Shown here one piece after another: positions 1,601-60,793 of a stretch of 64,000 nucleotides of DNA. The notes under the pieces are model-generated. The model was not told where the DNA came from and searched no databases. It saw only the letters and a list, made by a program, of their open reading frames with translations. The stretch's first letter is position 1, and every line of letters starts with the position of its first letter. The position numbers and the translations under genes were made by a program. The DNA is taken from the NCBI GenBank assembly GCA_033398695.1, contig CM065816.1, positions 135,009,358 to 135,073,357 on the forward strand, read 5' to 3'. This DNA is from Orobanche coerulescens. Lineage: Eukaryota; Streptophyta; Magnoliopsida; Lamiales; Orobanchaceae.

Positions 1601-1891
1601 AGCGTGCGCTGATCTTTAAAGATAGCGCGCGCTAACGGGGGTCGCCATCAGTCCAGTAGCTACTGTCCGGTGTCGCTAGCATGCGCTATACAAGTTTAGC
1701 GCGCGCTACCTGCTACTCGATAGCGTGCGCTACGAAAGCTTAGCGCGTGCTACCTGATAGTCAGAACTCAGGATTCTGAGTCCAGAATCCTACTGCCCAG
1801 AACGTTGAAGAAGTTAGCGCACGCTACAACAAGGAGCTAGCATGCGTTAACTGCACACCGATAGCGCAAGAAACCATAAATAGCGTGCGCT
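1601..1891 (-). repeat. AGCGCGCGCT palindrome array in LTR copy B
   Basis: Copies of AGCGYGCGCT or one-to-three-base variants start at 1601, 1624, 1678, 1698, 1722, 1742, 1816, 1839, 1863 and 1882. Spacings are 23, 54, 20, 24, 20, 74, 23, 24 and 19 bp. The core is self-complementary and CpG-rich. The sequence between copies is not obviously repeated. It lies directly upstream, on the minus strand, of a TATA box. Confidence 0.85.
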
Positions 1892-2418
1892 ATTTATGCA
1901 GCAGTCCAGCACTGCTGAGTGCAGTTCACTGCGAGGAAGGTACGAATTCGAACCACAACGCAAGGCCAGAATCCAAAAACATAAATACGAGAATTCGCGA
2001 AGGCGAAGCGAAGTGCTAAAAGAAAATACAAATTCCGACTACCAGGGAATCTGAAATGCGACAAAGAAGATAAAATTCCCTAAACTTATAAGAAATTGTA
2101 AAATGGCCAAACGTCCGAAAATCACGATACAACGTCGGATTAACAAACCGAAACTCACGACATGAACAACACAACCATACGGACTCATGGAAACAAAGAA
2201 ACAACGAGATCGAACGAGTTTTACTAGAATCGAACATACATGCGACAAAACATAACATAAAACGAAATTACGTAAAAACATCTTCGAAACTCGTCCAAAT
2301 GGAAAAACTCCAAGAACAAAATAGATTCAAAATGGCGAACCGATTACAATCGAGTCGATAAAAATAGACATGCGACAAAAATAGAAACTGCTAAAAATGG
2401 AAATGTACGAATATTACA

Positions 2419-3184
2419 TGGTCCAGCATGAAGCAATTACTTGGTGGACGACTCCTTATGCGCGGTAGTTGGGGATATGTAAGAATCAGGGGATTGGATA
2501 TACATCTCGCGATTTAACTGGTTCGACAAGGTCAATATAATCAATATCGTCACAGTTCTGAAGGGCCGAGACTATCGTCCCAAGAACTAGTTAAGAATAA
2601 GTTTGGAATCTCGACATAAAAAAAAATTGTTACCGTATAAAAGGTGTGACCGTGCGAGTTGGGGCGCAAGGTTGAAAAACTTTCATTTTAACCAAACTAG
2701 GCAATCAAAATCAATTGCCGCAAGATTTGGACAATGCAGTAGCTAATTTAGAAGATGGACTTTATAGGACATTTCCACAGAACCTTTAGAAAACCCTACT
2801 CATATTTATTTATTTCCTTAGATTATTTTAAAATTTTTTAAAATATTTAATGATGTGACCATTAATTATTATTAAAAATCATATGTATGATACCCAAAAT
2901 ATATCGTTGAATTTTCCAACCTTTAGAACAAACAAAACCATCAAAGAAGTACAATGAACCCTAGAGATGTTTATATTATTGTATAAAAGGGTGATTTTGT
3001 TAAATCCGTCAAATTTCAATTAATTAATATTTTAAAACTCAATATCCACTAAATTAACAAATCGAACAACTTTATAAATCTAAATACTGATATCAAACAA
3101 TAGATAAAATTTAACTACAGTAACAAAAATAAAATTCACCCAACATTCTAATTTCTCAGGCTCGGTGTCCCTCTTCCACATCAT
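2419..3184. other. Unassigned interval between LTR copy B and the hAT element
   Basis: About 770 bp with no coding region, no repeat shared with the rest of the window and no recognisable element end. The right half (about 2790-3180) is strongly AT-rich. It could be old host intergenic DNA into which the hAT inserted. Confidence 0.4.
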
Positions 3185-3450
3185 GACGTTAGTAAAGGTG
3201 GCCATTCACGGGTTCGGGTTCAGGTCCGGGTCCGACCCGTCAGGTCCACAGATCTGCCGACCAGGACTGGACCCCACCCATACATATGAAATGTACGTGT
3301 CGGCGGGTTCACGGGTCGGCCACGGGTCCGGGTCCGACCCATGAATTATTTTTTTTGGGAAAAAGTATTGTTACAATTTTATTTATTATCATTTTATACA
3401 TGGAAAAACAACTAATGAACAAAGGAAATGACTGAAAAAAATGAGCTTTT

Positions 3451-4954: not shown

Positions 4955-5309
4955 GGCATTGTAATACCCGGTTGTAATTCATTCATTTTCATTCGGTAAT
5001 TATCAGTCTGTAATTGTCACTCAGTATTTCTCACTCGCTAATAATCACTCAGCATTCTTGATTCATTCATTTGTGTTCACTGTTGGCTTGTTGTAATCGT
5101 ATATCAGTTACCGATCGGCATGTCATCTCCGTTTAGAGACCGACGGGAGTATTGTTGTTTTCATCGTGATTGGTAGTCGTATACTGGGGGCTTCATCGGT
5201 GGCTTGTTTTAGACTTGTTCATTTTCACATTCGTATGTTATGTCGGATCATTCATCAGTCGTAGCGAGGAATCGGAGTTATCGGAATTTTCAACTTGGCC
5301 GATCGAGTT

Positions 5310-5933
5310 ACGGCCGTAAGGACTTTGGGTTACGGCCGTAACAAGGGTTCGTGGTTTTCGTGCCATTTGACGAAAGGGACTTACGGCCGTAAGGTCTTGT
5401 GGTACGGCCGTAAGTCGAGCAGTGTACGGCCGTAAGGCCGGCATTACGGCCAGACGCTGCCAAAGCAGCTACCGAGACATTTTTGGCCGAAGGTGAGTTA
5501 CGGCCGTAAGGAAGGTGAGATACGGCCGTAAGTGGTGTTCGTGAATTTTGGGTGTTGTCGACCAAGGGTGACTTACGGCCGTAAGGGTTGCATACGGCCG
5601 TAAGTCGAGGAAGGTACGGCCGTAAGGCTTGGCGGTTACGCCAGACGCGGCAGTGCAGTACCGGTCGTTTCGACGAAGAGGGCTTACGCCGCAGTTTGGC
5701 CGGATACGGCCGTATCATCCGAGTTACGGCCGTAAGGTGTGCGGTTACGGCCGTAAGGGTGTCGACGGATGTTTTGACGAAGGCGGGTTACGCCAGTAAC
5801 TCAGATCGCACGGCCGTAAGTCTGCTTGTGCTTTCGGACGAAGCCGAGTTACGGCCGTACGAGTTGGCCGGTTACGGCCGTAAGGCCGTTTACTTGGAAA
5901 GTTACGGCCGTAAGAGGGCCGAGTTACGGCCGT
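5310..5933 (+). repeat. ACGGCCGT palindrome array, 18 copies
   Basis: Exact ACGGCCGT cores (usually TTACGGCCGTAA) start at 5310, 5332, 5383, 5404, 5426, 5500, 5522, 5575, 5594, 5616, 5706, 5726, 5747, 5810, 5851, 5874, 5904 and 5926, with degenerate copies near 5446 and 5638. Spacings are mostly 19-23 bp, otherwise 30, 41, 51, 53, 63, 74 or 90. The same array is in the 3' LTR at about 13078-13696. It ends 13 bp before the TATA-like box. Confidence 0.92.
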
Positions 5934-5945
5934 AACTTCCGGCAG

Positions 5946-5952
5946 TATTTAA
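5946..5952 (+). promoter_or_regulatory. TATA-like box of the Tekay-like 5' LTR
   Basis: TATTTAA immediately downstream of the palindrome array and upstream of a CT-rich leader. The 3' LTR has GATTTAA at the same place, so the first base differs. Placement as promoter is inferred from position. Confidence 0.5.
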
Positions 5953-7583
5953 TGACTTGGCCGGGTCATTTCTCCTCACTTCTTCATTTTTCCTTCTTCA
6001 TCCGAGAGAGAGGGTTGAGAGAGAGATTTTATCATCATCAATCACTTGAGTGTGTTATCTTCATCATCTTCATTCCTTTGAGAGGCTTGGATACTCGTTT
6101 TAACTCGTGTTCTTCGGATCGTAGTGGTTGGATCTTCCAGAGGTAATTTCTTCAACACCTTGGATTTCGATTTTGTGTTGAGTTATGATGTTTTGGACGT
6201 TATAATCATGTTATATGAAGGGATATGTATATGATTATGAGTTTGTATAAGGATTCATTGGATTATTGAGAGATTTATTCAAGAACACTTTGAATATCGA
6301 GTTGGATTTGGGGATTTCCGATTAATTGTTGTTATAATCACGTTTTTGGATATTCATAACGGATTATTGATCGTATTGGAGATGTTTTGTTGTTTTGAAA
6401 CACTTCTTGGGGATTTGAAGTTGGTATTATTGAGGTTTAGTGGTAATCAATCAAAGTTGGCCTCAAAGTGTTCGATATAATGCCCCAATGAACTTGGTTT
6501 AATCGTATCGACGTCTTGAGTTCGTTATATTCGTGTTTAATCCGTTATTGATCGGATTGTTGGCAATTGTATTGAATTAAGGTTGTTCGAGCGACCGGTA
6601 TCTTGGTTAGGACGTTGTTCGTGGACGGACATTCTTCATCGTTGTTGTGTAAGTTAATTCTTACTCGGTTAAAAGGATATTCATACCTTTTGTTGTTGAT
6701 TATTCATAATCATAACTCATTCATCATTGTATTAATCATATTAAAACTTGTTATTGTCAATTAATCACTTCAGTCATAAGGAACGACGGTTCCAATCTTT
6801 TCGTTGAGCTATCATTCATTTCATTATTACTCTCATCTCGGTGAGTCATTCTTGACTTTGTCAGATTATTACCTATTCATATTCATTACGGTCATTCTCG
6901 TTCATATGACCTTCTGGGTTCATATTGCGTGGCCGGGTGTGGCTGTGTGGAATTTTTAGTCGGGCACACGATGGTTATTGTATTGGGTTCACCGATACAT
7001 TAGACCGTGCACACGGGAAAGCGTTACACCGTGAGACTAATTAGGTACACGGACGGGTGTTGTACACTCACACGTAACATTACGCGCGTTTATGATACTC
7101 CTCTCCAGCGTAATTCATAGCTAAGAATATTTCATAACTTCGCTTAATCATAATTGTGTATTTTCAACCCTTGAGGATTGTTGTTCTCAGATAATCGACC
7201 CGCTTGGGGATATTGTTTTTCGTGTCATGGCAAGGCTAAGGCGCAGGAGAACACGTTGACGGCGGGAGTCCCAGTGATACTAGAAGGGGGCCCCATCCTT
7301 TCACCATTTATTCATCATTCATGTTTTCTTTATTTATTCCACGCAGACATTCCGTTCGAATACTCATTTCATTCAGTGTCGTGTATTTTATCGTCACATA
7401 AGATACACGTGTATTCTATTATCCTGGGTGTGTTGTATGAAACTCCTACTCGGAGTAATTGATGTTATAATGTGGTTCGGTACTACATTTACCCTGTGTA
7501 ATTCATCCTTTTCCATTCGCCTAGTGGGTCCCAAATGGGGTCCACAGACCGTAATATCCGCCTAGTTTGGGGTGTTACAGAGT

Positions 7584-7595
7584 TGGTATCGGAGC
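7584..7595 (+). other. Primer binding site, initiator tRNA-Met type
   Basis: TGGTATCGGAGC begins 4 bp after the 5' LTR end. The usual plant site complementary to initiator tRNA-Met is TGGTATCAGAGC, so there is one mismatch (A to G at position 8). It primes minus-strand DNA synthesis. Confidence 0.85.
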
Positions 7596-8069
7596 GTGGT
7601 TTTGAATACTACCCTCCAAGTCATGTCTCGTTTGAAATCATCGTCATCGGACTAGTATCATTGGACTTTCGCGTCACGTGTGACCTGTGCAAATGCCGAG
7701 CCAATCGTACCAAGAACCGTAAGATTTCTAATGTCATGGTATAATTTCTCGCATTAATCATTCATTCATAATTCATCGCTAACAATCCTCAATCATCATT
7801 GCCACTTTGATCGGGACGGTCGTGTTAACTCATTAATCACTCAATTCATTTCATTATTCGATTGTTGATTAGAAAGATCAAATCATTAATCTTGTTAACT
7901 CATTCAAGATAATCATTTCAAGAATTCATCGATAATCATGTCACGTCAATTAATCATTCATGTAATCGCCGATTGGAGCGTGTATGCTCATTTTCATCAT
8001 CTCATAATATAATCATAACGTGATATTCATGCGGGAAATATAATCATCATGTGACTTTCCTACTTCAGT

Positions 8070-9250
8070 ATGGAAAGAGCGCAGAGGACGAGGAGGACGA
8101 GGCCGTGGAGCGGGCCGAATCCCGAGAACTCGTGCAAACACACGTGCAAATGCCAGAATAATGCTAACTCATCGAGCGTGGACGCCGCCACTCATTCACC
8201 TCGACGCGATCATTCACTATCGGAGTCGCACCGGACACGGCTCGGTCGAGGGTGTCCGGTTGACCCACTCGCATTTATGCAGGCATGATGGCCCAAATGA
8301 CCAGATGGCTCGGTTGATGGAGACGATGCATAACTCCACTACTCGAATCAACAGCTCCTCCGCCGCCACCTCGAGGCAAGAGAGGAATGTGAGCAATATC
8401 ATCGGCGACATCTCTCGCCGCAGGCCACCGACTTTCGAGGGCCTCGTCCGAGCCGGCAGATATTATTCATTGGCTCGAACATTTCGAGAAGTTGTTTGCT
8501 ATGGTGGAGTGTCCTAAGGACACAGAGTTTCGTTGCGGCTTACTACCCGGGTAAGAGCGCTCATTCTTGGTGGTTGTCGTTGAAGCCCACCGAAGGATCT
8601 TGTACATGGGATCGGGCCAAAACTCTCATGATGGAGAGGTATTATCCGGCCCCACTCGAGAGGCCAAGCCGCCGAGTTACTCACTCCCGACCCTCATCGA
8701 CGAGGATGTTCTCGCCATTGCCGAGAAATTTCAGAACTTCTTCCGTCGCCTCATCTATCATTCATTCCGAGGCGGATAAGATTAAGTATTTCAAAGAAGA
8801 GGTCAAAACCCCGTATGAGACTTCAGCTTGCTCAATCATAATTGCACCACGTTGGTGAATTCATTGAGAAAGCTCTCACCTATGAGCTTATCGCTAAAGA
8901 GATTGCTAAGCAAGCAACCTTCGTCGCTAGCAAGAAATCGAAGAATCGTAACCATCAAGGCGGCCGACAACCTTCAAGAAACCCCGTATGGCTCTCGCTT
9001 TCGAGCGACCTCCCGTGTCGCCTAGACCCGCTAATCTCGCCTCGAGCGGCGCCGGCCATCACTGTTTTAATCATGGGGAGCTTGGTCACCTCGCACCAAG
9101 TGTCCTCGGCACTATCACGTGTCATAATTGTGGGATTGCCGGGCATAAGGCCCGTTTTTGCCGTAGGACTCCAAACCTACTCGACGTCATCTCGTGCACC
9201 TAAGCAAATTGCCGTTCAGTCGTGCCGCTCAATCGGCGTCGCTTAATACG
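8070..9250 (+). pseudogene. gag of the Tekay-like element (frameshifted)
   Basis: This is the capsid/nucleocapsid region of the retroelement. The best gag-like stretch, with PPTFEG at the start and a HSWW segment in the middle, is spread over three frames between about 8410 and 8860. A CCHC zinc knuckle (CHNCGIAGHKARFC, about 9120-9161) marks the nucleocapsid. A second, damaged knuckle, CFNHGELGH, lies just before it. At least four frame changes occur, so no single product can be made from the sequence as given. The start is unclear; 8070 is an ATG followed by an Arg-rich N-terminus. Confidence 0.8.
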
Positions 9251-9329
9251 ACAGAGCGACTAAAGGTGGAGCCTATAGCCAGCAGACGGAGCGTCCGTGC
9301 GGGACTAGCAAGCCCTGATTTATGAGATG

Positions 9330-11180
9330 AAGAAGACCGATGATCCCGAGGCCCGAATGATCTCGTGTACACTCGATATTCTATCTCAACCTCGTGTGTA
9401 CCCTTTTGATACCGGTGCATCGCATTCATTCATTTCCGAGTCATGTTTGAGTAGACTACGTCCGGGTAGTGCTACTAGTTGTGAGCCTTATGTCATCGAC
9501 CTACCCGATGGTAGACGAATTATCTGAATCGTGAGATTCGTAATTGTCCGATTCGGCCATGGTCGTGTATGGCCAGCAGACCTAATCGTGGTAGTTTTGC
9601 CGAGGGACGACGTCATCTTGGGTATTGATTGGATGGATCGTCATGATGCCATCATTAGTGTCCGTAAGCGTATGGTCACTATCATTTCGCATTTATGGGT
9701 TTGAATATGTGTTTCGTGGAGGTAATCCTTACTGTCCGGGTAAGGTCATTAATTTGATGAAAGCGAAGGTTACTCAATCGTGATGTGTCGGTTATTGGTG
9801 CTATATGGCCAAAACCGAGAAGTCATCAAGAATGTTAACGGATATTCCGTGGTGAGGGAATATGCCGATGTTTTTCCGCATTTGAGTTACTCGGTTTACC
9901 TCCACAGAGGGATGTGGAATTCACGATTGAGTTGGAGCCTGCACGCCCCCGATATCGAAGGCACCGTGACGGATGGCCCCGACCGAAATGCAGGAATTAA
10001 AGAACCAACTTGAGGAATTGTTCGAGAAGGGTTATATCCGACCGAAAAGGCCACCGTGGGGAGCACCCGTGTTGTTTGTCAAGAAGAAGGATGGTTCATT
10101 TCGTTTGTGTATCGATTATCGGAGTTGAACAGAGTGACAATCAAGAATAAATATCCCTTACCCCGTATTGATGATCTTTTAGATCAACTTCGTGGAGCTT
10201 CAAGATTTTCCAAGATCGACTTAAGATCCGGATATCACCGCCATGGATTCGAGAGTCGGATATCGCGAGGACGGCGTTCAACACGCTATGGTCATTATGA
10301 GTTCGTAGTTATGCCGCTCGGGCTAACTAATGCACTGCGGTATTCATGGAATTGATGAATCGGGTTTTCATCGACTTTTGGATCAGTTTGTTGTTGTCTT
10401 CATCGACGATATTTTGATTTATTCTCGTAGCCGAGAGGATCACGAGGTTCATCTTCATCGTGTTCTCGACGTGTTGAGACGAGAGCAACTTTTGGAAAGT
10501 TTTCCAAGTGCGAGTTACGGATGTCCAAGTGACTTTTCTCGGACATGTAATTTCATCGACGGAGTTCGTGTCGACCCTCGTAAGACGGAGGCTATTCGAG
10601 ATTGGTTACCTCCGAAGAATGTTAAGGAAATCCGAGTTTCCTCGGATTAGCGGGTTATTATCGGCGATTTGTGGAAGGATTTTCCAAAATTGCTCAACCA
10701 TTGATGAACCTTTTGCGAAAGGATAAGAAATACACGTGGTCCGACGCGTGTCACAGAGTTTTGAGGAACTCAAGAGCCGGTTAATGACAAAGACTGTACT
10801 TTCCTTGCCGCAGGGACGGAGGGATTTGTGGTTTATAGTGATGCGTCCAAGGGGTCTCGGATGTGTGCTCATGCAGAACGGAAAGGTTATTGCTTATGCT
10901 TCACGGCAATTGAGACCTTACGAGGTTAATTATCCGACCCACGACCTGGAGCTAGCAGCCGTGGTGTTCGCTTTGAAAATATGGCGTCATTATCTTTATG
11001 GCGTTACCTGTCAGATATTCACCGATCATAAGAGTTTAAAATATATATTTACTCAGAAGGAGTTAAATATGCGACAGAGACGGTGGTTAGAATTAATCAA
11101 AGATTACGATATCGAGATCCTTTACCACCCGGGCAAGGCGAACGTTGTCGCCGACGCCTTGAGTCGCAAGTCCGTCAGAG
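9330..11180 (+). pseudogene. Protease, reverse transcriptase and RNase H of the Tekay-like element
   Basis: Aspartic protease: DTGASHSF at about 9408-9431. Reverse transcriptase: [12 protein letters not shown] with KIDLRSGYH near 10150-10230 and the catalytic FIDDILIYS at 10399-10425. RNase H: about 10736-11170 with [21 protein letters not shown] and a terminal VADALSRKS, the longest intact piece (frame open over 238 codons). Frames change between protease and RT, twice inside RT and before RNase H. These are the enzymes that copy the element RNA into DNA. They are broken in the sequence as given. Confidence 0.88.
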
Positions 11181-11439
11181 CAGATGCTTGCTCGCCTAAC
11201 AGATTCGAAGGAACTTCAAGCAGGAATTCCTTAGACCCGAGATCGAGGTCCGCTTCAGCGAGTTCAGTGACACTTTGTATGTTAGAGATTTCATCGTCAC
11301 TCGAGGAGGTAATCAGAGAGAATCGGAGTTCGACCCTTCATTGTTGCGCATCCGTGAGGATGTGGCTCAGGGAAAGCCCTCGATTCGTGGTCCACGAGGA
11401 TGGACTTTTGAGATTTAAGAATCGGTTGTGCGTATCGCG

Positions 11440-12720
11440 AATGACGAGTTGAAAACTCGATTTTGAGAGAAGCTCATGCTACCCCTTATTCTGCTCATCC
11501 GGTCCAGAAGATGTACAAGGACTTGAAACAGAATTACCGTGGAGTAATATGAAGCGAGAAGTCGCAGAATTTGTTTCGAGATGCTTAACTCACAACAAGT
11601 TAAGATTGAACATCGCCGATCGGCGGGTATGCTGAAACCTCTCCCTATTCCGAGTGGAAGTGGGAAGACATTTCTATGGACTTCATCACGAGTTTGCCGA
11701 CGAGTCGCCGTGGCATGAATACGATCTGGTGATTGTGGACCGCTTGACTAAATCACTCATTTCCTTGAGATCAAGGATACGTGGGGTCCCGAGAGACTGC
11801 CTCGCTTGTTCATCAAAGAGATAGTCGACTCCATGGTACTCCTAAGAGTATCGCTTCCGATCGTGACGGACGATTTGTGTCTCATTTTTGGAAATCATTC
11901 ATCGTGCTATGGGAAATCACTCAATCTCGCATCGCTTTTCATCCTCACCGACGGCAATCGTGAGAGGACTATTCAGACATTAGAGGACATGTTGAGGGCA
12001 TGCGTCCTCGATTGGAAGGACGATTGGGAAGCCCAACTACCATTGATCGAGTTCACGTATAATAATAGCCGGCATGCTTCCATTAAGATGGCACCTTACG
12101 AGGCCTTGTACGGTCGTTGCCTGTCGGTCTCCTTTGTGTTGGGATGACTTGTCGTAATCAATCGGCACCGAGCCCGATATGCTTATAGCCGCCCGAGAGA
12201 AGGTAGCTTTAATCAGAGTCGTATGTTGGATTTCGAGTCGGCGTAAATCCTATGCGATAATCGCTGCCGACCACTAGAGTTCGAGACGGTGACCACGCTT
12301 TGGTCAAGGTATCCCCGAGTCGAGGTATTTTCCGCTTTGGAAAGAGGGAAAGTTGAGTCCGAGATTCATTGGACCGCTTGAGATTTTGGATCGAGTGGGC
12401 GAGTTAGCTTATCGATTGGCTTTACTTCCGGCGTTGAGCCGAATTCATAACGTGTTTCATGTCTCTCGATTTAAGTATATTTCGACCCGAGTCACATACT
12501 CTAGTTCGATTTAAATCGAGATCGCCGACGATCATTCATATGAGGAACGCCCTATTCGAGTTTTAGAGCGGCGAATCAAACAGCTTGAGGAATAAGACTA
12601 TTCCTTTGGTTAAAATTCAGTGGTCTAGACACGGAGTCGAAGAAGCTACCTGGGAAACCGAGGATAGTATGCGGGGAGTTATCCCGAGTTGTTTGACCCT
12701 TAGTTTCGGACGAAACTCTT
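11440..12720 (+). pseudogene. Integrase and chromodomain of the Tekay-like element
   Basis: The zinc-binding N-terminal part is recognisable near 11470-11540 (HATPYSAHP), the first catalytic segment near 11660-11700 (WEDISMDFITS in one frame) and a later core piece at about 11960-12120 (APYEALYGR). The C-terminal part (FHVSRFK, about 12450-12475) is followed by a chromodomain-like segment at about 12540-12690 ending in a WETE-like motif. Several frameshifts and in-frame stops occur. The chromodomain is what places the element among chromoviruses, which use it to target chromatin. Confidence 0.8.
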
Positions 12721-12723
12721 TTT

Positions 12724-15355: not shown

Positions 15356-15360
15356 GGCAT

Positions 15361-48955: not shown

Positions 48956-48984
48956 CCCGTTCGGAAGTTCAAAGGCCCAGGTAC

Positions 48985-49648: not shown

Positions 49649-50996
49649 ATGGCTAGAAAGAGAAAGGTTAGCACAAGGGCTAGGACGCAATCGTCCCCCA
49701 CACGAGGGGAAACTTCACAAAGCCGAGCCGAGTTGGAGTCGCATCAATTCTCCGACCCGGAAATTCATAAAATATTCAATGAAAAGATCTGTCCTCGACC
49801 TTTGATTCCGGAGCGGGGATTCACTCCCGCCCCCCAGGACGGGGAACTTTTGACGATGATAGACGAGATGGGGTGGGCCCGTTTCGCTGCGCCTCCCGAG
49901 CCGGCCGTTATCTCCATAGTCCAGGAATTTTATGCTAGCGCTCTGTTGAAGCACATTCGGGCGGGGCAGATGATACCGCAGTTAGATACTCGGACTCAGG
50001 TTGTCGTCCGAGGCATTACAGTGGATTTTTCGGTGGCTGCTATTCGGAGATTATTCGGGCTGCCTGTGGTTGACGATACCGCATATACGCGAGCTATGAG
50101 TGGCCTCACGAGGGAGGCCCTACTCGAGACACTCACACAGCCTGGTTCCGTCTGGGAGACTCGCGCCCCGAGTTCCTCGGCCTTCTACTTTAAGAGCTCG
50201 CATCTCAATCGTCTCGGGCGAGCCTGGTTGTATTTCATCTGTGCTCGTGTAGATCCTACTTCGCAGATTCGCTCTGTTTTACTCTCTCATGCCCGTACAC
50301 TATATGCCATCACTTCCGGGCTTAGGTTCGATGTGGCCCCTCTTCTGGTCCGATCTATTCTTCTATGCATTCAAGGAGGGGCCAAGATGGGGCTGAAGCA
50401 CCCCTCTCTCATCTACGCTCTATGCCGCCAGTCGGGCATGACTTGGTCGGATGATGAGCCGATGCTGGCCCCCCAGGGTCCGATTGATCATCGCATCATT
50501 TCTCACTTCGACCAGTGGGGAGGAGCGCCGGCACATGCTCGGGGGCGAGGATTTATTCTTGATGAGGCACACGAGCAGTCCCCCGAGCCTCTTCTTCTGA
50601 CGCATGGGCAGGCAGAATCCAGCCCGCCGCCCGACAGAGAGCACTTGCAGGCGATGTTCGACGGCCTGAGAGAGGAGATGAGGAGAGAGAGTGTGTGTCA
50701 CTTGGCTGTTTGGAGAGAGGAGATGAGGAGAGAGAGAGAGCCATGTGGCTGCCCTGAGAGAGGAGATGCGGACGGAGAGGGAGAGCATCCTCGCAGCCGT
50801 CCGAGATGAGATGAGAGAGCAGGCCCGCCGGGCGAACCGACGTGAGACGAGACGCTTGGCAGCGAGGGATGCTTATCACTGGGATTACCTTACTGCGTGG
50901 ACGATCCACATTATGCACCCGGACGGGCCTTTCATCCCACCAGTTCGGCCAGCCACGCCACCCTCCACGCCAGACGACGCCGGCACCAGTTCATGA
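49649..50996 (+). pseudogene. Athila env-position ORF (putative plant transposon protein domain)
   Basis: ATG at 49649 follows a 3' splice site (49639) and opens MARKRKVSTRARTQ, a basic N-terminus that could act as nuclear signal. About residues 60-250 resemble the domain annotated in databases as putative plant transposon protein; it contains RGITVDFSVAAIRRLFG (about 50009-50060). The C-terminus has repeated REEMRRE units (about 50660-50800), in which a frame change occurs; the other frame continues as a charged helix to a stop at 50994-50996. No signal peptide or membrane segment was seen, so envelope function is doubtful. The upstream in-frame extension to 49436 is probably intron. Confidence 0.75.
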
Positions 50997-51505
50997 GCGG
51001 ACAGTAGGGGAGTACTTGACCTTTTCTTTTATTTCATATTACATTTTGTGTACATTGAGGTCAATGTACGTCCTAAGTTTGGGGGGGGTCTACTTTCTGT
51101 TGCTGTACTTATTCGTTTGCATTTCTCGTTATTTTTCGTTATTTTTTGTTGCTAGCTTTGCTTGTCGTGATATTATTTGCATTCGTGAATTTGTCGTGCT
51201 CTTTTTGTGTAAAACTGATGTTACGATAAAGATTTCTCTCTAAAGAAACGGTTGAGTTTTAGTCGAGTTGTAGTCAGCGATATCTGTTTCTGTTGAGTAT
51301 TCATTTTGGTCCGAAATTTTTTTGTTTTTTTGTAGAAATCTTAGCAGATAAGAAAGGAGACATACGTGTTTTCAAATCGCCGTCTATATGTTTGGTTACA
51401 TTCTTCGCGTAGCTAGTCGTCCAGTAACATGAGTCGTGTTGACACTTAATTTGAGTTTAGAGTCGGACAGTTTTTCCCAAAAAGTCGAGATATTATTTGT
51501 TCTAT
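50997..51505. other. Non-coding 3' part of the Athila-type element with extra polypurine tract
   Basis: About 500 bp T-rich sequence. CTAAGTTTGGGGGGGGTC at about 51073-51090 resembles the real polypurine tract before the 3' LTR (52249-52263) and could be a second plus-strand priming site. Confidence 0.5.
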
Positions 51506-51840
51506 GATGGGAGGTCTAGTAACCGGGGGTATTCACGTGACCCGTTGTTTACTCTCGCGTAAAACGACAACCCTGATTAGACTAGTGGTTTAGAGATTTC
51601 GCATGTGCCGATGATGGGGAGCCTAGTCACCAGGGGTATTCGCGTGACCCGTTGTTTACTCTCGCGTAAAACAGCGACCTTGAATCGGACATGCGGGAAT
51701 AGCTATTCGAGTTGTTTCTCCGCTGTGGAGGGGAACTTAGTAACTAGAAGCATCCATGTGCCCCATGAGTGTCTTTTACGTCAAACGGTTCCCCAATACA
51801 TGAGAATGGAAATCCACCCTAGGATTATCCCGATGAAACA
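51506..51840. repeat. Three diverged ~110-bp tandem units
   Basis: Units start near 51506, 51613 and 51726. Units 1 and 2 share GTATTC-C-GTGACCCGTTGTTTACT and TCGCGTAAAAC; unit 3 is more diverged. They lie between the env-position ORF and the polypurine tract. Confidence 0.8.
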
Positions 51841-52248
51841 TCCCGAGATCCGAACCTAGTGGTTAACTCGAATCTTTTTATTGATCATATATAAGGGAAT
51901 ACTATCTGAGGGTTATTTTTGATGATGAAACTCTTGATATTTTTGCCACTAGACTGTGGGACTGGGCGAGATGGCTCGGTTATTTTAACCCTTCATATTG
52001 GCGGTCGGTTAAATTCACGCTTGTTAATCTTTGAGCTTGATTTTCTTCATGAACGATTGATTAGCACTGAAAATGGTTACTTGGTGGAATCAGTGTCCTG
52101 GATGTGACTCACTATTACGATACTTGTATTATTCTTTGAGATTTTCAGGGTAGTATTGATTAAGTTGAGCACTATGGAGTTGCACGATCATTCACGATAT
52201 TCTTTTGTTTGAAATTGATTCTTTTTGCTTGAGGACAAGCAAAGGCTC

Positions 52249-52263
52249 AAGTTTGGGGGTATT
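52249..52263 (+). other. Athila polypurine tract
   Basis: AAGTTTGGGGGTATT directly before the LTR start at 52264. Confidence 0.85.
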
Positions 52264-53585
52264 TGTTAGGCGTATTTTTATACGCTTATTTATCATTATT
52301 CTTTATCCATTTTATGTCTAAACCTGCATAAATGAGCCTTTAATGCACTATTCTCTTATATTTGGCAGGAAATTGGAGTCCGGAAGCTCGAACGATGAAA
52401 AACGGGCGAAAACGGCAATTTTTAGCCTGGGGCCGCGACACGAACCAAGTGAGCCGCGACACACGAAGATGACCAGAAAGCGCCGAGCACGCTGTACTGT
52501 GAGCCGCAACACAAGGATGCTGAGCCGCGGCCCAGGAAGGAAAAAAGGCGCCATAGTATAGGCGCTGAACATGGTGAGCCGAGGCACAGATTAAGTGAGC
52601 CGCGGCTCACGGGGCGGTTTTGATAGAAATTGCCGCGTTTCTGGGCTGTTTTGGAGCCTGTTCTCGACCTAATCACACGGACACGTTTTGGAGGCTGATA
52701 ATAGTTATAAATAAGGGTTTAAGGTCTGAAAAGAGGGACGATCAAGGGATTAGAGGATCGATCATCATTGAGGAGAAGAAGAAGCAGAAAACACCAAGGA
52801 GCAGAGTGCTGAAGCCATAAGAACGGAGGAATCCGAGTTCTTCGTCTGCGTTTGATCTTTATGCTTTCATTAATTATTTCTGTATTTTTATTCTTTAGCA
52901 TGTCAGGCTAAAACCCTATTCTAGGATTTTGATGAAACCGAGGTTTTGACGAGTTTACTTTTGATTATCAATATAATTCCCTTTTCTGTTGAGTTTTCCC
53001 AATTGTTTTTAATGCTTTCAATTGTGTGGCCTATAATTGAATTGTTTTAATCACGCAACTCGAATCGGGAGAGGAGAGTTGGTGAGGAATTATTGGTGAG
53101 AACCGTTTTATCTTGTGAGATAGGAATATACTCGTAGGAACTACGTGGCCTTTTTGAAGATTCCGTGCCTTTTGCCTATTGTCGAATTGATTCACCTAGG
53201 GATAGAATGTATTATTCGCCTTAGAAAAATCTACTGACCTCGGGAGAGGCGGTAGAGTACTTTAGCAACCTTCGCCTTCAAAAAATTGGGAAATCATTAA
53301 CTTCAGATAATCGAGAGTAAATTCGGATAAACCAAGGTGGATTCACAATCCTAGATTAACTTCTTATTTGATATTCTTTCTTCGAGCGATCGTTTTCATT
53401 ATTTATTCTTTTATTAATTTTTCTTTAATTATTACTTGCATCCCAAATTTCGATAGTTCAAATAAAACTAGAATACGTAAAAATCGGTAGTTGGTAAGTC
53501 AGTCCTCGTGGGAACGATATCTTACTCATCATTTTATTATTTGTCTACGATAACGTGCACTTGCGTTCATCGAAATCAAGCAACA
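52264..53585 (+). repeat. Athila-type LTR 2, shared by two units
   Basis: 1322 bp. It is preceded by a polypurine tract (3' LTR of the left unit) and followed by a primer site and gag (5' LTR of the right unit). TATA box TATAAATAA at 52706-52714. Several CCGCGG cores are changed relative to LTR 1. Confidence 0.92.
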
Positions 53586-53591
53586 AGTTTT

Positions 53592-53610
53592 TGGCGCCGT
53601 TGCCGGGGAT
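53592..53610 (+). other. Second tRNA-Asp primer binding site
   Basis: TGGCGCCGTTGCCGGGGAT, identical to 29158-29176, following LTR 2. Confidence 0.9.
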
Positions 53611-53757
53611 TGATTATTTTACCAATATCGATTTCAGTATTTCTAGTCTTAGTTTGAACATTTTTTTTATTATTTTTATGTAATTTTATTTATTTGTTTT
53701 TCCTTGCAGGAATTTCCGGTTAGTGCATGTGAAAATTTGGTAACGAAGGCCTACTAC

Positions 53758-55392
53758 CTTTGGATACCGAACTCGAGCGCACTCTTCGGAGAAGCAAGAA
53801 GGAGAAACGTGAGCTACCGACAACAGTCACCATGGCCGATAATACTGAAAATCACGGAGGAGATAATCTTATGCAGCAAGCTCAATCGGCATTGGCACTT
53901 CGAGATTATGCAATGCCACAAATAAATGCGAACTTTTCGGGGATTCGGCGTCCAACAATCCAAGCCAACAACTTCGAAATCAAGCCGGCGATTATTCAGA
54001 TGGTGCAAGCAAGCCAGTTTTGTGGATTGGCGAACGATGACCCCAACGCGCATATCGCGTCGTTTCTCGAGATTTGTGACACCTTCAAAAACAACGGTGC
54101 TATCGATGATGCTATCCGTCTGCGGTTTTTCCCTTTCTTTTGAGGGACAAAGCCAAATTCTGGCTGAATTCTTTACCGCCGGGTTCTATCACGACTTGGG
54201 CGGAACTAGCGCAAGCCTTCCTGGCCAAGTTCTTCCCACCATCAAAGACGGCGAGACTGAGGAACGAAATTACTACTTTCGGGCAATTTGATATGGAGTC
54301 CCTTCACGAAGCTTGGGAGCGATACAAAGATTTATTACGGAGATGCCCACACCATGGCTTACCGGACTGGCTACAAATTCAGACGTTCTATAATGGATTG
54401 AGTGCCTCTACACGCACTCTTGTTGATGTGGCCGCTGGAGGAGCGTTAATGGGAAAAATGATGGCCGAAGCTCACTCTCTATTGGAAGCGATGGCTGCAA
54501 ATACGTATCAGTGGCCTTCTGAACGAGTGATCCCGAAGCGAGTTATGGAAATCTCCAATAACGATCCAATCTCTACATTATCAGCTCAAGTCGCCGCCTT
54601 GACTCAGCAACTTCAAGCCTTTTCACATGCTCCTTCCCCCGTCACCACAGAATCGTGCAATTGGTGCAACGGATCTCATCCTAGCGCAGAATGCCAAGTT
54701 GGAAATCCTTTTGAGCAACATCCGATGGAGCAAGCTCAGTTCGTGGGGAACGGGAATCGGCAGAACAATCCGTACTCCAACACTTATAATCCGGGGTGGC
54801 GTAATCACCCTAACTTTTCATGGAAGAATGGATAGAACTTAAACCAACCTCAGTTTGCTCAACACCAACAGAAACCTCCTCCCGCTCCAAAAATCTCTCT
54901 AGAGGAAGCAATGGCGAAATTGGCAGCAAATACGAGTCAGTTCATGGCCCGTACGGAAGCGACCTTGCAAAACCATTCCGCTTCTATTCGCAACTTGGAA
55001 GTCCAATTGGGCCAGATAGCAAATGTGTTAACAGCCCGCCCGGAGGGTACCTTGCCAAGTACGACTGAGACAAACCCCAGAGAGAGTATTAATGCCATTA
55101 GTTTGAGAAACGGGAAGGAATTGTGCGACCTGCCTGAGAGGAACAATAAGAGAAGTGAGGGTGAGGAGAAGAAAAACTCGACGACTGAGGAATCACAAAA
55201 TTCGAGACCCTCGATACTGTTTCCTAAAAATCCAAAGGCATATGTGCCACTCATCCCATTTCCACAGCATCTGCAAAAGCAAAATTGGACAAACAATTCT
55301 CCAAGTTTATTGACGTCTTCAAGAAACTACATATAAATATTCCATTTGCTGATGCGCTGGAACAAATGCCGAGCTATGTCAAGTTCATGAAA
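53758..55392 (+). pseudogene. Athila-type gag, copy 2
   Basis: Close copy of 29293-30960. Here the central gag domain is open from 53833 to about 54140 (DPNAHIASFLEICDTFKNN), then after a 1-base frame change from 54140 to 54835 (with RDKAKFWLNSLPPG, HEAWERYKDLLRRCPHHG, NYQ/TYQWPSERV-type segment). TAG at 54833-54835 is shared with copy 1. The last part (54911-55336) ends near 55392 at the Sirevirus LTR. Differences from copy 1 are scattered single bases. Confidence 0.88.
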
Positions 55393-57230
55393 TGTAGGTC
55401 ACAAGTCGTCCAGGAATAAGTCTAGAGAGGGGGTGAATAGACTTATTGAAACTCTTAAACTCTTTTCTCAAAGAGTAAGTTTCTTCAGCTGATATATAAA
55501 CAAATGACTTGGAGTCGTTTGTTCTTAATACGTGCGGAAGTCAGCTGATGACGAATACAAAACAACTAATGAAACACTTAACAATGAATGCAGCAGTTAA
55601 AGTATGATTCTATAAAACAGTAAAGTACGCAGGCAATTATAGTGGTCTCAGAGGTGGGGTAATCCTTTACTAATCCACTTTTCTCCAAACCAGTTGGATA
55701 TGAATTCACTATAATTTTCAACCAGTGATAAATATTACAGTGATTCAACCAAACTACAACAGCTTCCAACCAGTGGAAATCCGTGCCATTGTGACACACT
55801 TGACTGCCTTGCACCTCTTGATCCTCGATCCTTTGATGCCTTTACAGTATCGAACTTCAACCAGTGAAGTACCACGAACTCTGGATTTAAGACACAAGTT
55901 TTTGTCTTCTCCAACTAAGAGCTTCTTCAAGTATGAACTTTTTAGAACTGCTCTTTTCACGATGCTGTATTTCATTTTAGATTGCTTGAATGCTTTGATC
56001 GCTTGAAAGTATGTTCGCACCGGTTGTAATTGTTGTGTATGCTCAGCTTCAAATCTTCGGATATATATATATATATATAGGTCACGATCTCTGAGCTTTT
56101 CCTTCATAGCCGTTGCAATTCTGTAACAAATCAGTCCGTTGGAGTGAGACTTCTTTGTTTATTCTTTCTGAACGTTGCAAGGCTGGATTCCCATAATTTA
56201 ATCTATCTTCCGACCGTTGTGAAGACTCTGCATGTGAGGCGCCGAATCTTTTGAATATATTACAATTAAAGTCTTCAAGGTAGGTCTGGATGAATTATTT
56301 AATTCATATCCTTTGCGGGAATCTCTCCAATTTGTCTCTTCACGTTGCATGTGTCTTTCCGTAATACTTGACTTTTCAACGCATGCTGACGTGGACTTGG
56401 AGTACTTGGCTGATCTCGAGTAGGCTGATGTAAGGTTAACTTCTCTGCAGTTCTGGACCTCTCTGATGTTCACTGTTTGGAACTCGCCTGATCAGCTGAC
56501 CTGTCTGAGGTTACTTGACTGCAGTCTGGTCAAACATCTCTGATAATTTTTGTTGACCAGATTTTCTCTCATATGACTCGGCTGTACCTCTCTGATGAAC
56601 TTAGCTGTTCTTTAGTACTTACCTGATTTTTAGCCTAACTTATTTTGGCCTATAGAAGATACTCATTTGGTTCTTCTTTACATTTTGCCAAGTTTTACAC
56701 TTAACATAATTTGGCCTATGGAAGATACTCATTTGGTTCTTCCTTACATTTTGCCAAGTAATAAGCATTTGAATTTATATTAATGACATCATCAAAATCT
56801 AACAAGTATTCCTAACAATTTCCCCCTATTTTGATGAAAGGAAATATTTAAATGAACAAGTCTGCACTTGAGTGCAAGACACAAACTAAAATCAGTCTAC
56901 TTTTTGAGACAACTGGAAATTGTCATTCAAAAGACTGTTATAAAATTTTCTGACTTGAAAATTTTACAAGTACAGAAATAAATAAAAATCATCTGCCTCT
57001 GCCTCTGCCTCTACGAATAGGCTGCTTGGCAGGCCTGAAAGGTTTCGCTCCAATTGGTCTTGTCTTGACAGGGGCAAGACCATACTTCCTCTTTACAACA
57101 AGAGCTGCAAAGTCTTGCTCTTCTTGTGATGTGAACTTATTCTCAACACATACTTTCTTGATTTTTCTCTGGAGAGCAAGTTCATTTAAAGCACTACCTT
57201 TCTCCAAGGTGGTAGGTTCTTTAGCTCTGA
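55393..57230 (-). mobile_element. Truncated second Sirevirus (3' LTR and end of extra ORF)
   Basis: 3' LTR 55393-56817 (1425 bp), polypurine tract after it, then the last 70 codons of the extra ORF (57207-56989) ending RGRGRGR. It stops abruptly at about 57230, where Tat-type LTR sequence begins. Its insertion point in gag (after TTCATGAAA) is the same base as that of the complete Sirevirus at 30961. A (TA)n run at about 56058-56078. Confidence 0.9.
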
Positions 57231-57404
57231 ACTAGAGTCGATCGCTGGGTGCCAAGAGACGATAGCCCTGGATGTCGATCACTCGGTACTTGATCTTGAT
57301 ATGGAACCTTCGTTTGATAAGTCTGCCTTGGTTCATTTGACGCTGACTTAGTCGCTCGGCCTTTGTGCCGATCGCTGTTGAGGCGTATTAATTGCCGCAC
57401 AACA
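57231..57404 (-). mobile_element. Tat-type LTR fragment, left element
   Basis: The right edge ACAACA (57399-57404) followed by ATTGCCCCCCAGC (polypurine tract read on the minus strand) matches the LTR/polypurine junction at 60681-60699 of the right element. The LTR is cut at 57230. It holds CGATCGCT motifs. Confidence 0.65.
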
Positions 57405-57940
57405 ATTGCCCCCCAGCTCGCTCCGATGTTAAAGACATGGGGTGAGGTGTTTTTACAGGCGATCGTTTGAATTAAAGACGAGCGACTCATCACTTTATGG
57501 AACAGACGATAGTCTTCTCGAGCGGACCTTGATTTTGAATTTAGACGACCTACTCGGTCGCTGAAAAGAGCGGGAAGTGAAAGCGGACTTGGAACGTCAT
57601 TGGGGCATGTGTCGCGTTCCTGTTGGGGGAGTCCGACGGTTCGTCAGACTTGTCCTCTGGCATGCCCTCGAAACGACGCGCACGCGGGATTCGATGGCGG
57701 CATTAAATGCGGATTTTTCCGACCCTTGCGCTTCGGCCCTTGCAACTTTGTTTATTTGCCCAGAAGACCCTGCTTTCACCTATAAAAGAGGCTAGGGTTT
57801 CTGGTTTACATCCTATTGCATTTTGCCTGAGAAGAAAGTAGCGCCGAATTCCTATAAAGATTTTTGTGTTGTCGAGCGTCGTCCGACTAGACTTTTTAGG
57901 TAAGACAAAACCTCCTCTTTTTCCCTTTCTATTTTTGAAG
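57405..57940 (+). promoter_or_regulatory. Promoter and spliced leader of the left antisense ORF
   Basis: GGCGATCGT at about 57459, a TATA box TATAAAAG at 57781-57788, a leader, and a short intron from GTAAGA (57900) to GAAG just before the ATG at 57941. The same order occurs in the right element (TATA 61049-61056). Read against the element it is an antisense promoter, since LTR and polypurine tract point to the minus strand. Confidence 0.65.
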
Positions 57941-59575
57941 ATGTCTGGAGGAAAACAAATGGTGTATGAGACGGGTAGCACTTCCGCCGCCGGGACTTCG
58001 ACTGCCCAGGATGAAATCTCCGTGGAGTTCCATGTGGAGACGGCCGTTGAGGCTATTCGCGCCGGGATTGAACCCGCGGAGGTTGAAGAGCTCTTTAACG
58101 AAGCTGACGCGGCCAGGGCGACGGAGGCAGAGTGAAAGCTTTCGCTGGTCGAAGAGGAGATGGCAGTGAAGGCATACTGGAGCGAAACAGTGCGTTCGGC
58201 AAAGCCTTTTCAGACTTTGCTGAACTTATGGAGAAGCTGGCCGTCCCGTTTCCCAAGTTTGATTTCCGCGAGTACTCGGTCGCCCATACTCATGAACCCG
58301 AAAGGCGGATGCTGTTCCGGACCGCGTGCCGCTCCCCGTGGTCCCTTGGCCAGATTAGAAGCTCGGTGACCAGGAAAGATTTGGACCATTGGAGGGCGAA
58401 GTTCCATGTCCCCTCTGATGTTTCACTCTATGTGCCCGCCGAGAATGAACGTGCCGACGGACCTCCTGAGTGCATGGTTGCTGTTAATGAGGCGATCATA
58501 GGGGTCGTACTGCGGTTTCCACTGCCGTTTGCCATGTCTTCCTTTCTGGTGGCCTAGAATGTGGCGCCGCTTCAACTAACGCCGAACGCCTGGCTGCAGA
58601 TCGTCTGCACCCTTACTCTGTTCGGCGGTCACCGGCTGTACCGTCTTCCTTCGCAGCTGGAGATGAACTATCCATTCAAGCTGGCGGCTCAGAAGGGTTT
58701 TGTTGGTGGCTACCACATTGAAGGTTGCTCGGGCCGGGTGAATCTTGGGGTGCCGAATAAGGTCCGGGGCGACCTGACGAAGTGGTTCTGGGTCGGCGGT
58801 GCGTGGAAGTCGGCCGCGAGTGACAATCCCACCGATGAGTTGGACATCCCCACCGGCTTCCGGGAGAGGAATCCGAGTAAGGGTTTTGACTCTCCCTTCG
58901 TTCGGATATATTCTGAACTGACCTAATTTGGCTTTCTCTTTGCAGGTGTCCTTGTTCCGGCAGCGGGCGAGCTAGCCTTTGATTTTGCGATCATTTGGGA
59001 GCAAATCCGTGGTCTTCCAGATTCTCATATCGACGCTCGCCAGATCAACAACGAAACCTGTTGGTTGGTCGCTCGGCTGTTTCGTTTTCCTCGCCACTTA
59101 AGGGTTCCAGGTATGAATTCTCCCGATCCCCCTTTGCTTGATGATCGTCTTGCGGCTGAGAAAGGTGACTAACCTTTGCCGATTGTTTTGTTTGCAGAAA
59201 TCCGCTTCCCCCGCTACTTAGAGCCCCCGACAAAGGTCGCTATGTCGAACCCCGGGATTATGAGCCGCCTGCGCCAAGGGAAGAAGACGAGCCGAGTCCT
59301 TGCGGTGCCGATCCGACCAATCCCAGAGGCAAGACCTCTCGTGGAGCCGATCGTGGACAAACAGGAGCCTCGGGAGGAGGGACAACTCCAGCTTAATCGC
59401 AATAGACGGGGGGCGGAGGAGCCCTCAGCCTCTGCTGTTGCAGATGCGCCTACCATGGCGCCGCCGATTGCCGCGCCTCCACTTTCTGCGATACCACTGG
59501 TGGAGGGGTCCACGTCCTCCTCAAGTTTCCTGGAGGTCGCGGCTGTTGCTATCCAAAATATTATCCGGAGATAGA
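57941..59575 (+). pseudogene. Antisense extra ORF of the left Tat-type element (Transposase_28-like)
   Basis: ATG at 57941 opens MSGGKQMVYETG. The shared core has FDFREYSV, WSLGQIRSS, LFGGHRLYRLPS (about 58618-58655), GVPNKVRGD and WFWVGGAW, which I recognise as the domain called putative gypsy-type transposon in plant proteins. Introns 58877-58945 (69 bp) and 59111-59197 (87 bp) have GT-AG ends and match those of the right copy in position and length. A frameshift or stop at 58133 and a frame change near 58510 disrupt it. The coding sequence is cut at 59575 by the LTR of the right element. Extra antisense ORFs between pol and 3' LTR are known from Tat-lineage elements; function unknown. Confidence 0.72.
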
Positions 59576-60686
59576 TGTTGCTGGAATGGATGGATACCAA
59601 ACAAGGTGCGAGAGCACTTCCGTAGAGAAAGTAAATAACACAAGATTTGCCGGGGTTGTTAGTCCCGGGCTTGAATGCTCTCGCTAGATGTTATTAATAC
59701 GAATATTCGGGGATACAAGTATTAATGTTAGAATACTATTACAATGAGTGTAACGATTCTAGTTATCTTAGCTAGTGAGCGTGTAGATGGCCGGAAGAAC
59801 CAGATGTGATGCTCTGTGAGTTCTTGTAACAACGTTGATGAACTGTGACGAGCGTGAGAAATCGACAGCCTCTCACGGCGTGTAGTTGCTATGTATCTGA
59901 GCTCCGAGGCTTGTGAATCTGAACTGTGGAGACTTCTTGCCTCTGCCGACCGTCTTCTGGTTGAGAGGTGCTGAGAGAGAAATCCTGAGGTAGATTCCGG
60001 TGAGGAAGCCGGGAGCCTGAGAGTATGTATGTTTGTATGTATTTCCGTGGATGATTTTCCCACTGATTGCAATGAATTGCGAACCGAGAGTTCTTTCTGA
60101 CTAGAATGGGGAACTAAAATCTCAACCTTTTTCTCGTTGCTGGATGTTCTCTATTTATAGGACTGGGACACGCTGGGCGATCGCCTCTGCTGTATTATAA
60201 TAAGCGGGCGATCGTGTTTTAGCACATGGGCTGGTCCCCTTAAAGTACGCAGGGATTGCTGGCAGCCAGCTGCGCGGTCTAATGAGAAGCCTGCACGCGT
60301 CTGAGTTGCTGTCACGAGCGGCCCCACCTTGTACCTTTCGGCGGGTTTGTCGGTAGGTGATAAGGTGGTGCCAGGCTGTGGTCAACGATCCGGGAATCGC
60401 GGCGGTTGTCGCTGATCTGCACATGGGAGCTGCTTTGAGATTCAGTCTTCATGGACTTTGACGGACGAAGGCCTCTGTACGTGGCACTGGACGGTCGTTT
60501 TATGTCGTATATCAGAGACGGTCGCTGGATGCCAAAGGCGATCGCCTAGAGAGTCGATCGCGGGATGTACTAAGCTGGACTGTTAGCTCCGCTTAGGCGC
60601 GTTCACCATAGCATGATTGGATGTGGACTCGGTCGCTCGGCCTTGCAGTCGATCGCCTGTCGAGGTGAATAAATCTCGGCACAACA
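59576..60686 (-). mobile_element. 3' LTR of the right Tat-type element, inserted in the left antisense ORF
   Basis: On the minus strand it starts TGTTGTGCCG at 60686 and ends GCAACA at 59576, 1111 bp. A minus-strand TATAAATA (60152-60159) has GCGATCGC motifs upstream (60177, 60208, 60538, 60554, 60649). The left flank ATAGA (59571-59575) is the candidate target duplication; its partner is outside the window. The LTR interrupts coding sequence of the other element. Confidence 0.78.
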
Positions 60687-60793
60687 ATTGCCCCCTAGCT
60701 TGCTCCGAAGTTGGAAACGTGGGGCGAGGTGGTTCTGCTGGCGATCGCTGAATTTTGACGAGTGACTTTGCATTTTACTGAACTGGCGATCGT
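60177..60793. repeat. GCGATCGC palindrome cluster
   Basis: GCGATCGC or TCGATCGC or GCGATCGT at 60177, 60208, 60538, 60554, 60649, 60741 and 60786, plus weaker GGTCGCT copies near 60518 and 60630. Some are inside the LTR, the last two are beyond it, upstream of the plus-strand antisense promoter. Spacing is less regular than in the other arrays. Confidence 0.75.
60687..60699 (-). other. Polypurine tract of the right Tat-type element
   Basis: On the minus strand GCTAGGGGGCAAT immediately precedes the LTR start. Confidence 0.7.

Follow-up and report, generated by a model that had tools for sequence, protein, structure and literature searches.

The stretch of Orobanche coerulescens DNA analyzed here (contig CM065816.1 of assembly GCA_033398695.1; henceforth the window, 64 kb in length) is rich in long terminal repeat (LTR) retrotransposons, and forms the whole evidence base of this work. 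LTRs of two Ty3 lineages, and one internal, non-LTR promoter, carry dense arrays of short palindromic cores, which are our subject (Table 1). The first lineage includes E1, a Ty3/gypsy element whose internal region has Pfam matches to RT_RNaseH (2.5e-29) and, weakly and below the cut-off, to RVT_1 (0.00073); a match to SH3_Tf2-1 (1.4e-13) adjoins the E2p array, the Pfam evidence on pol covering E1 and E2p only. E1, LTR-A, LTR-B and the elements with the E2p and E3 arrays we take to be Tekay-like, from their LTR ends and an iMet-type primer-binding site (PBS). The second lineage is Athila-like. Here a Retrotrans_gag domain (4.7e-23), a 3′ extra open reading frame (ORF) matching PF20167 (1.9e-28, on the longer frame 49427-50806) and PBS sequences at 29159 and 53593, presumably of Athila type, were found; no reverse transcriptase was seen among the Athila ORFs scanned with Pfam. 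Two tandem Athila copies (46048-57237) seem to have one LTR in common (52264 to ∼53590): a polypurine stretch precedes it and a PBS follows it, as if it closed one copy and opened the next.

An earlier note on this DNA had placed arrays of palindromic cores just upstream of TATA-like boxes. The arrays are real, mostly promoter-proximal, and present in both Tekay-like and Athila-like elements; their cores are 12 or 14 bp long, and TATA-like boxes follow the last core of E1 5′, LTR-A, E2, E3, E4a, E4b and E5. Two arrays, at 13077-13701 and 52429-52609, are additional to those in the note, and the array at 48.6 kb, which had been taken for an LTR promoter, is instead internal and lies ahead of the Athila extra ORF.

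The cores were recovered by a scan of all self-complementary 6-, 8- and 10-mers that was independent of the earlier list. A/T runs aside, the densest palindromic 8-mers are ACGGCCGT (18 copies in 5310-5926 and 15 in 13079-13670) and GCCGCGGC (eight in 48624-48947, five in 27998-28165), with ACGTACGT (four in 27474-27748) at lower density; the remaining clusters are of TATATATA, ATATATAT, TTTTAAAA and GCGATCGC. For E1 5′, E1 3′, E3, E4a and E5, the count of any palindromic 8-mer never rose above two in 200 dinucleotide shuffles per region; six further repeat tracts in the window scored 0-1 at the 8-mer level. Palindromic repeats are nevertheless not confined to promoters: in one of these six tracts, at 25.6-26.2 kb, the hexamer ATCGAT occurs 13 times. 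When an order-2 Markov null was trained on the array itself, E5 passed (8 copies against a maximum of 2) and E1 did so barely (18 against 17).

Rather than five separate cores, as proposed, three of the five fit a single degenerate dyad, TWRCGNNCGYWA, written T[AT][AG]CG-NN-CG[CT][AT]A, the form of the Tekay-like cores. One word listed as a dense core, AGCGCGCGCT, has two exact occurrences; the unit of E2 and E2p is TAGCG-YR-CGCTA, mostly in C>T or G>A variants, such changes accounting for 23 of the 24 deviations from TAGCGCGCGCTA (21 of the 24 at CpG). There are 34 sites for TWRCGNNCGYWA in the 64 kb, all in LTR promoters (33 in arrays and one in LTR-A), against a Markov expectation of 0.45; the motif was composed after the arrays had been viewed, and the telling part of this count is that the rest of the window has no sites. 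All 15 sites of the Athila core GCCGCGGC in the window lie in E4a, E4b and E5. Shorter words stray: one of 35 copies of ACGGCCGT (at 58040) and four of 19 CCGCGG hexamers are outside the arrays. The view that different families share one design thus holds, with the reservation that three core words collapse into one dyad class, and that E4 and E5 belong to a single Athila lineage.

Two distances between cores, about 21 and 52 bp, are preferred. Steps were counted in E1 5′, E2, E2p, E3, E4a and E5 (E1 3′ and E4b were excluded, and E1 sites 5444, 5788 and 5937 and E3 site 27769 were dropped beforehand): 31 of 53 consecutive steps are 19-24 bp, where 2000 random placements gave a mean of 8.9 and a maximum of 18, and 41 of 53 are either 19-24 or 49-56 bp (random mean 12.5, maximum 21, 2000 placements). 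Mean short steps in the four core families are 21.4, 22.3, 23.0 and 21.4 bp, with one 18-bp step in E3, and the distance is alike for 12-bp and 14-bp cores. The further claim, that these steps are turns of B-DNA, stands less firmly. E1, E2, E2p, E4a and E5 pass an all-pairs test for a 10.5-bp phase (p 0.033 or less) and E3 does not (p 0.40); with each step class counted once the p-value is about 0.04, from few classes that are not independent because the arrays grew by duplication, and the pooled steps are better fitted by a period near 28.5. Helical phasing of the cores is moderately supported: likely, but unproven.

Are the cores themselves maintained? Mean core identity within arrays is 0.83-0.92, against 0.23-0.37 for the adjacent 7-8 bp, a contrast biased by the picking of cores for their likeness. 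In E1 all 108 sites in CpG or CHG context are intact in the 18 listed cores (three degenerate sites excluded). Across an internal duplication in E1 (offset ∼190 bp) 58 of 60 core positions match (97%) but only 66 of 115 spacer positions (57%; Fisher p 5e-9), and across one in E5 (offset ∼114 bp) the figures are 50 of 56 (89%) and 38 of 68 (56%; p 5e-5). Between the alignable halves of E2 and E2p, cores match at 40 of 48 positions, spacers at 23 of 46 and the downstream LTR at 114 of 239. When the core mask was slid along these three alignments, 2 of 177, 5 of 123 and 2 of 112 placements, respectively, reached the observed value. The two LTRs of E1 differ in the same direction, weakly (cores 210/215, spacers 375/401, p 0.03; 17 of 639 slides).

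These comparisons bear on one alternative, that the arrays are neutral tandem-repeat expansions in which the cores resemble each other as a side effect of duplication, or of palindrome recombination. The earlier note had raised a tandem-repeat origin, and was partly right: the E1 and E5 duplications can still be seen, the E1 LTR pair has clustered spacer differences and indels, and an ordinary repeat tract (the ATCGAT repeats) lies nearby. Yet duplicated units retain their cores while losing their spacers, and no full dyads are found outside promoters in the window. We regard neutral expansion as the least probable of the explanations considered here.

Some of the long spacers hold a second dyad, GGNCAG-N4-8-CTGGNC. 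Six exact copies occur in the window, all inside arrays, where 0.32 would be expected in the window and 0.026 within arrays, odds that are optimistic and not independent of the arrays, the pattern having been shaped by eye on E2, E2p and E3; the E1 3′ and E5 copies, too, had come to light before the pattern was fixed, in a less strict scan limited to the arrays. The array-independent part of the result is that the other 61 kb contain no exact site. Allowing one mismatch yields 14 rows, where 10 null simulations averaged 8.6 and reached 14, so that enrichment is not clear at this level. The E1 5′ LTR has no exact copy. Between E2 and E2p the second dyad is kept in place, matching at 16 of 18 positions, and its two differences are symmetrical (CAGTAGCTACTG versus CAGAAGCTTCTG). 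A further motif, TTTYGACGAAG, loosely matched, was noticed by eye in the long spacers of E1.

The base composition of both dyads bears on a second alternative: that the cores are simply clustered methylatable CpG, a density device read by methyl-CpG-binding or demethylation machinery and not by a sequence-specific dimer. Every core class carries two or three CpG, and most of the deviations in the E2 and E2p cores (the 21 of 24 given above) are CpG transitions. The CpG-free outer bases of the cores (TTA/TAA, TA/TA, TG/CA) are, however, largely conserved too, and five of the six second dyads lack CpG altogether. On balance a pure CpG-density device seems quite unlikely.

Core sequence changes between related LTRs. 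LTR-A and LTR-B share 82% identity across ∼400 bp close to their 5′ ends and 74% across a stretch further downstream; in the interval between the two, nine TAGCG-type cores lie in LTR-B and just one core, TTACGGCCGTAA, in LTR-A. Among lineages the core takes the forms TTACG-GC-CGTAA, TTACG-TA-CGTTA and TAGCG-YR-CGCTA, with the layout constant. In the Athila-like elements, E4a (LTR) and E5 (internal) align within the array only, over cores and parts of spacers, with the flanks unmatched; the statement that spacers are unlike across families was, to this extent, too strong. In E5 the order is a protease ORF (47434-48408), the array, a TATA-like box, a putative intron (49104-49639, placed by eye between promoter and ATG) and the extra ORF. 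The segment 46048-52263 seems to belong to the Athila copy that ends in the LTR at 52264; if it is one copy, the LTR and the extra-ORF promoter of a single element share an array type, which would indicate a common trans-acting factor.

LTR retrotransposons make up the bulk of many plant genomes, and how they are transcribed despite silencing is understood for few of them. From the sequence, we think it probable that the arrays are promoter-proximal operator (enhancer) arrays for dimeric, sequence-specific DNA-binding proteins that drive the LTR and extra-ORF promoters. The sites, their layout, their position at promoters, core conservation in three comparisons and the likeness of LTR and internal arrays come directly from the analysis; binding by a protein, its dimeric state and activation we infer from them. 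Each 12-14 bp dyad would be the site of one dimer, and with sites about two helical turns apart, and a second dyad in some long spacers, several dimers could cooperate at the neighbouring promoter; the element would thereby be transcribed, or shielded from silencing, in cells where it transposes. Core sequence would shift among LTR lineages while the layout is retained, and in the Athila-like lineage one operator type would serve two promoters, LTR and extra ORF. For the Tekay-like arrays a host factor seems to us the likelier, E1 having no evident extra ORF. An operator layout with changeable cores offers testable sites of 12-14 bp and predicts which copies could respond together; the same operator type at the Athila LTR and extra-ORF promoter would make a candidate circuit.

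Several results weigh against an operator reading. E3 fails the 10.5-bp phase test and its palindrome count is equalled by the order-2 Markov null (6 against a maximum of 6); exact palindromes are scarce in E2 (two) and E2p (one), within the range of shuffles; the second dyad was defined by eye, the step classes are few, and the TATA-like boxes, likewise, were judged by eye, with none clear in E2p. Selection on cores, which the earlier note had implied and which the E1 and E5 duplications and the E2-E2p comparison support, is not supported by E4a and E4b, in which cores match at 75 of 84 positions, spacers at 92 of 97 and the downstream sequence at 4452 of 4591, and 170 of 190 slides reach the core value. 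Dead copies in which methylatable cores decay would show core loss of this kind, but the result goes against the simple claim. Finally, the self-complementarity of single cores does not exceed their mutual complementarity in four of six arrays, which leaves the consensus, E1 and the second dyad as the support for the dyad reading.

Mutual complementarity is also what would be seen if neighbouring cores formed the stem of a hairpin, in RNA or single-stranded DNA, with an 8-12 nt loop in the U3 RNA and a role in packaging, strand transfer or small-RNA production. Adjacent cores are indeed complementary, with perfect 9-bp arms and loops of 10-12 nt in E1 and E3, and complementarity to the neighbour exceeds self-complementarity in E2 (0.82 versus 0.80), E2p (0.79 versus 0.73), E3 (0.83 versus 0.76) and E5 (0.81 versus 0.77). 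But a core is about as complementary to any other core as to its neighbour (neighbour/any: 0.92/0.92, 0.82/0.83, 0.79/0.78, 0.83/0.81, 0.77/0.77 and 0.81/0.79). There is, therefore, no pair-specific compensation, and hairpins are not favoured; we give them little credence.

VANDALs are not LTR elements, but their VANC proteins had been put forward as a parallel, and in behaviour the parallel fits: clustered short noncoding motifs that differ between related elements are found here too. As described in the excerpts considered of PMC5735166 and PMC10398659, VANC targets are short motifs clustered in noncoding transposon DNA as fast-changing tandem repeats, related elements differ in motif, and VANDALs encode the binding proteins; here the elements are LTR retrotransposons, and the motifs are dyads with preferred spacings of 21 and 52 bp. 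An element-encoded protein (for Athila, perhaps the product of the PF20167 extra ORF, which has a basic start) might similarly bind the arrays and lift silencing of the LTR and of its own promoter, core changes then reflecting target-site co-evolution. The array type common to Athila LTRs and the extra-ORF promoter is consistent with this, as are the differing cores of LTR-A and LTR-B despite their similar 5′ parts. So is the sunflower Athila extra ORF, which in the portion consulted of PMC11728184 is a 3′ ORF of the same Pfam family with a basic segment and predicted nuclear signal; that portion reports neither promoter array nor function for it. Against it, E1 shows no extra ORF in ORF lists or Pfam; the Athila protein has PF20167 as its sole Pfam match and no recognised DNA-binding domain, its best solved relative is not a clear one (E 0.8), and a structure model from a two-sequence alignment was rejected (predicted local distance difference test score, pLDDT, 35). 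Among 30 ORFs examined by Pfam none was named VANC and PF20167 was the sole extra protein recognised, no search with a VANC sequence being part of this. The VANC motifs printed in the excerpts of PMC5735166 (YAGTATTAY, AGTTGTCC and AGTTGTAC) are non-palindromic. An element-encoded binder is accordingly a possibility we rate as rather unlikely.

Operator arrays can be extended to a composite promoter code across LTR lineages, in which self-complementary operators, paired at two helical turns, and the shared GGNCAG/CTGGNC dyad would be combined with a core 'password' swapped between related LTRs, and in which the Athila password, used for both the genome promoter and the element's own nuclear protein, would form a self-recognising anti-silencing circuit parallel to VANC. 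This extension is speculative, and probably goes too far.

Repeated activator sites in U3 upstream of the TATA box are familiar from the Tnt1 and Tto1 boxes and the ONSEN heat elements, which bind known stress factors. The present dyads resemble these in position but share their layout across LTRs of two Ty3 lineages, and we know of no factor for them. The annotation of Arabidopsis Athila6A includes an intron and an internal ENV ORF promoter, features comparable to the putative ones at E5; the excerpt of PMC4977677 in question makes no mention of operator repeats, of sharing with the LTR or of intron position. LTR TATA boxes and cryptic starts are treated in PMC7319988, in the relevant part of which palindromes are not mentioned. 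Among the matches listed for the open-access PMC literature we found no description of such arrays.

Table 1. Elements, core arrays and second dyads of the window.
Feature	Position	Strand	Details
E1, Ty3/gypsy element	4960-15355	+	LTRs ∼2.62 kb; target-site duplication GGCAT (self-BLAST, ends)
E1 5′ LTR	4960-7579	+	Ends TGTAATACCC...GGGTGTTACA; self-BLAST, ends, target-site duplication
E1 iMet-type PBS	7583-7595		After 5′ LTR
E1 3′ LTR	12734-15355	+	Partner of 4960-7579 (self-BLAST)
LTR-A	about 1-1012	-	Starts TGTAATATCC
LTR-B		-	Carries E2 array; starts TGTAATATTC (read by eye)
LTR with E2p array	about 21521-23462 (inferred)	-	Starts TGTAATATCC
E3 LTR	probable end at 24042	-	GGGTGTTACA end; start cut by Athila insertion at 27830
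E4a LTR, Athila-like	starts 27830	+	Presumed Athila-type PBS 29159-29172
E4b LTR, same Athila-like family	52264 to about 53590	+	Polypurine stretch before, PBS (53593) after
Athila extra ORF, 386 aa	49649-50809	+	PF20167 Transposase_32; basic start MARKRKVSTRAR
Single core in LTR-A	476-487	-	TTACGGCCGTAA; TATTTTAA downstream
E2 array in LTR-B	1600-1892	-	9 cores TAGCG(YR)CGCTA; TATAAATA at 1587-1594 directly downstream in LTR sense
E1 5′ array	5308-5935	+	18 cores, type TTACGGCCGTAA; TATTTAA ∼10 bp past last core
E1 3′ array	13077-13701	+	15 exact ACGGCCGT plus degenerate cores; TATA-like box altered to GATTTAAT
E2p array	22928-23236	-	8 cores TAGCG(YR)CGCTA; no clear TATA box
E3 array	27472-27757	-	7 cores TTACGTACGTTA; TATATAG (27458-27464) adjoining
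E4a array, Athila-like LTR	27995-28175	+	6 cores TGAGCCGCGGCACA; TATAAATA at 28272-28279
E5 array, internal promoter	48621-48957	+	11 cores TGAGCCGCGGCACA; TATA-like TTTATAAC at 48987-48994
E4b array, E4a family	52429-52609	+	In LTR starting 52264
Second dyad GGACAG-TAGCTA-CTGGAC	1651-1668	-	E2; aligns with 22956-22973
Second dyad GGGCAG-N7-CTGGAC	1780-1798	-	E2
Second dyad GGTCAG-N5-CTGGCC	13203-13219	+	Long spacer of E1 3′ array
Second dyad GGACAG-AAGCTT-CTGGAC	22956-22973	-	E2p
Second dyad GGTCAG-TTAGTT-CTGGCC	27530-27547	-	51-bp spacer of E3
Second dyad GGGCAG-N8-CTGGGC	48908-48927	+	E5 long spacer; overlaps core

The two LTRs of E1 have diverged unevenly: by 1.8% on the downstream side of the promoter, by 6.5% and a further 11 indels in the array spacers, and by 5.0% upstream. 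The differences are clustered, and suggest gene conversion in U3, or recombination there with diverged relatives. The tract of ATCGAT repeats (25633-26210) is taken as lying within the E3 LTR. The RNase H ORF of E1 has its top match in Tanacetum (84% over 45% of the query, among the best 120 of 7915 matches), and the Athila extra ORF has its best match, a homologue, in Orobanche minor (55% over 55% of the query), to which a second homologue search added nothing. Downstream of a pol that was judged copia-like by eye, a reverse-strand ORF at 34917-35606 has weak similarity to PF20167 (7.4e-08, below the curated cut-off), and 19683-20069 holds a fragment of a Ulp1-type peptidase (PF02902), perhaps derived from a DNA transposon.

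Protein-guided searches of viral contigs recovered relatives for neither the E1 RNase H ORF nor the Athila gag ORF. Pair patterns of the cores were also sought in public collections: GCCGCGGC had no match in viral contigs, TAGCGCGCGCTA matched eight viral loci, and TTACGGCCGTAA matched one IMG/VR contig and three bacterial contigs; no plant copy from beyond the window turned up in these collections. On the IMG/VR contig, 3.9 kb of which was read by eye, ACGGCCGT-like palindromes are scattered along the stretch in a manner reminiscent of the cyanobacterial HIP1 palindrome.

The array reported at 60.2-60.8 kb with core GCGATCGC was set aside as different in kind from the operator arrays. It is enriched (3 copies against 0.04 expected; CGATCG 7 against 0.69), but it has no rhythm (R=0.05), and CGATCG is enriched throughout 57000-64000 (21 against 3.2 expected). 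Two stretches of this region, 57.3-59.0 and 60.6-62.3 kb, resemble each other at 74-76%; of three CGATCG sites compared between them, two are retained in the other copy. TATA-like boxes at 60150 and 61047, noted by eye on opposite strands and facing outward, flank the CGATCG sites at 60.2-60.8 kb, and resemble a divergent promoter or two facing elements.

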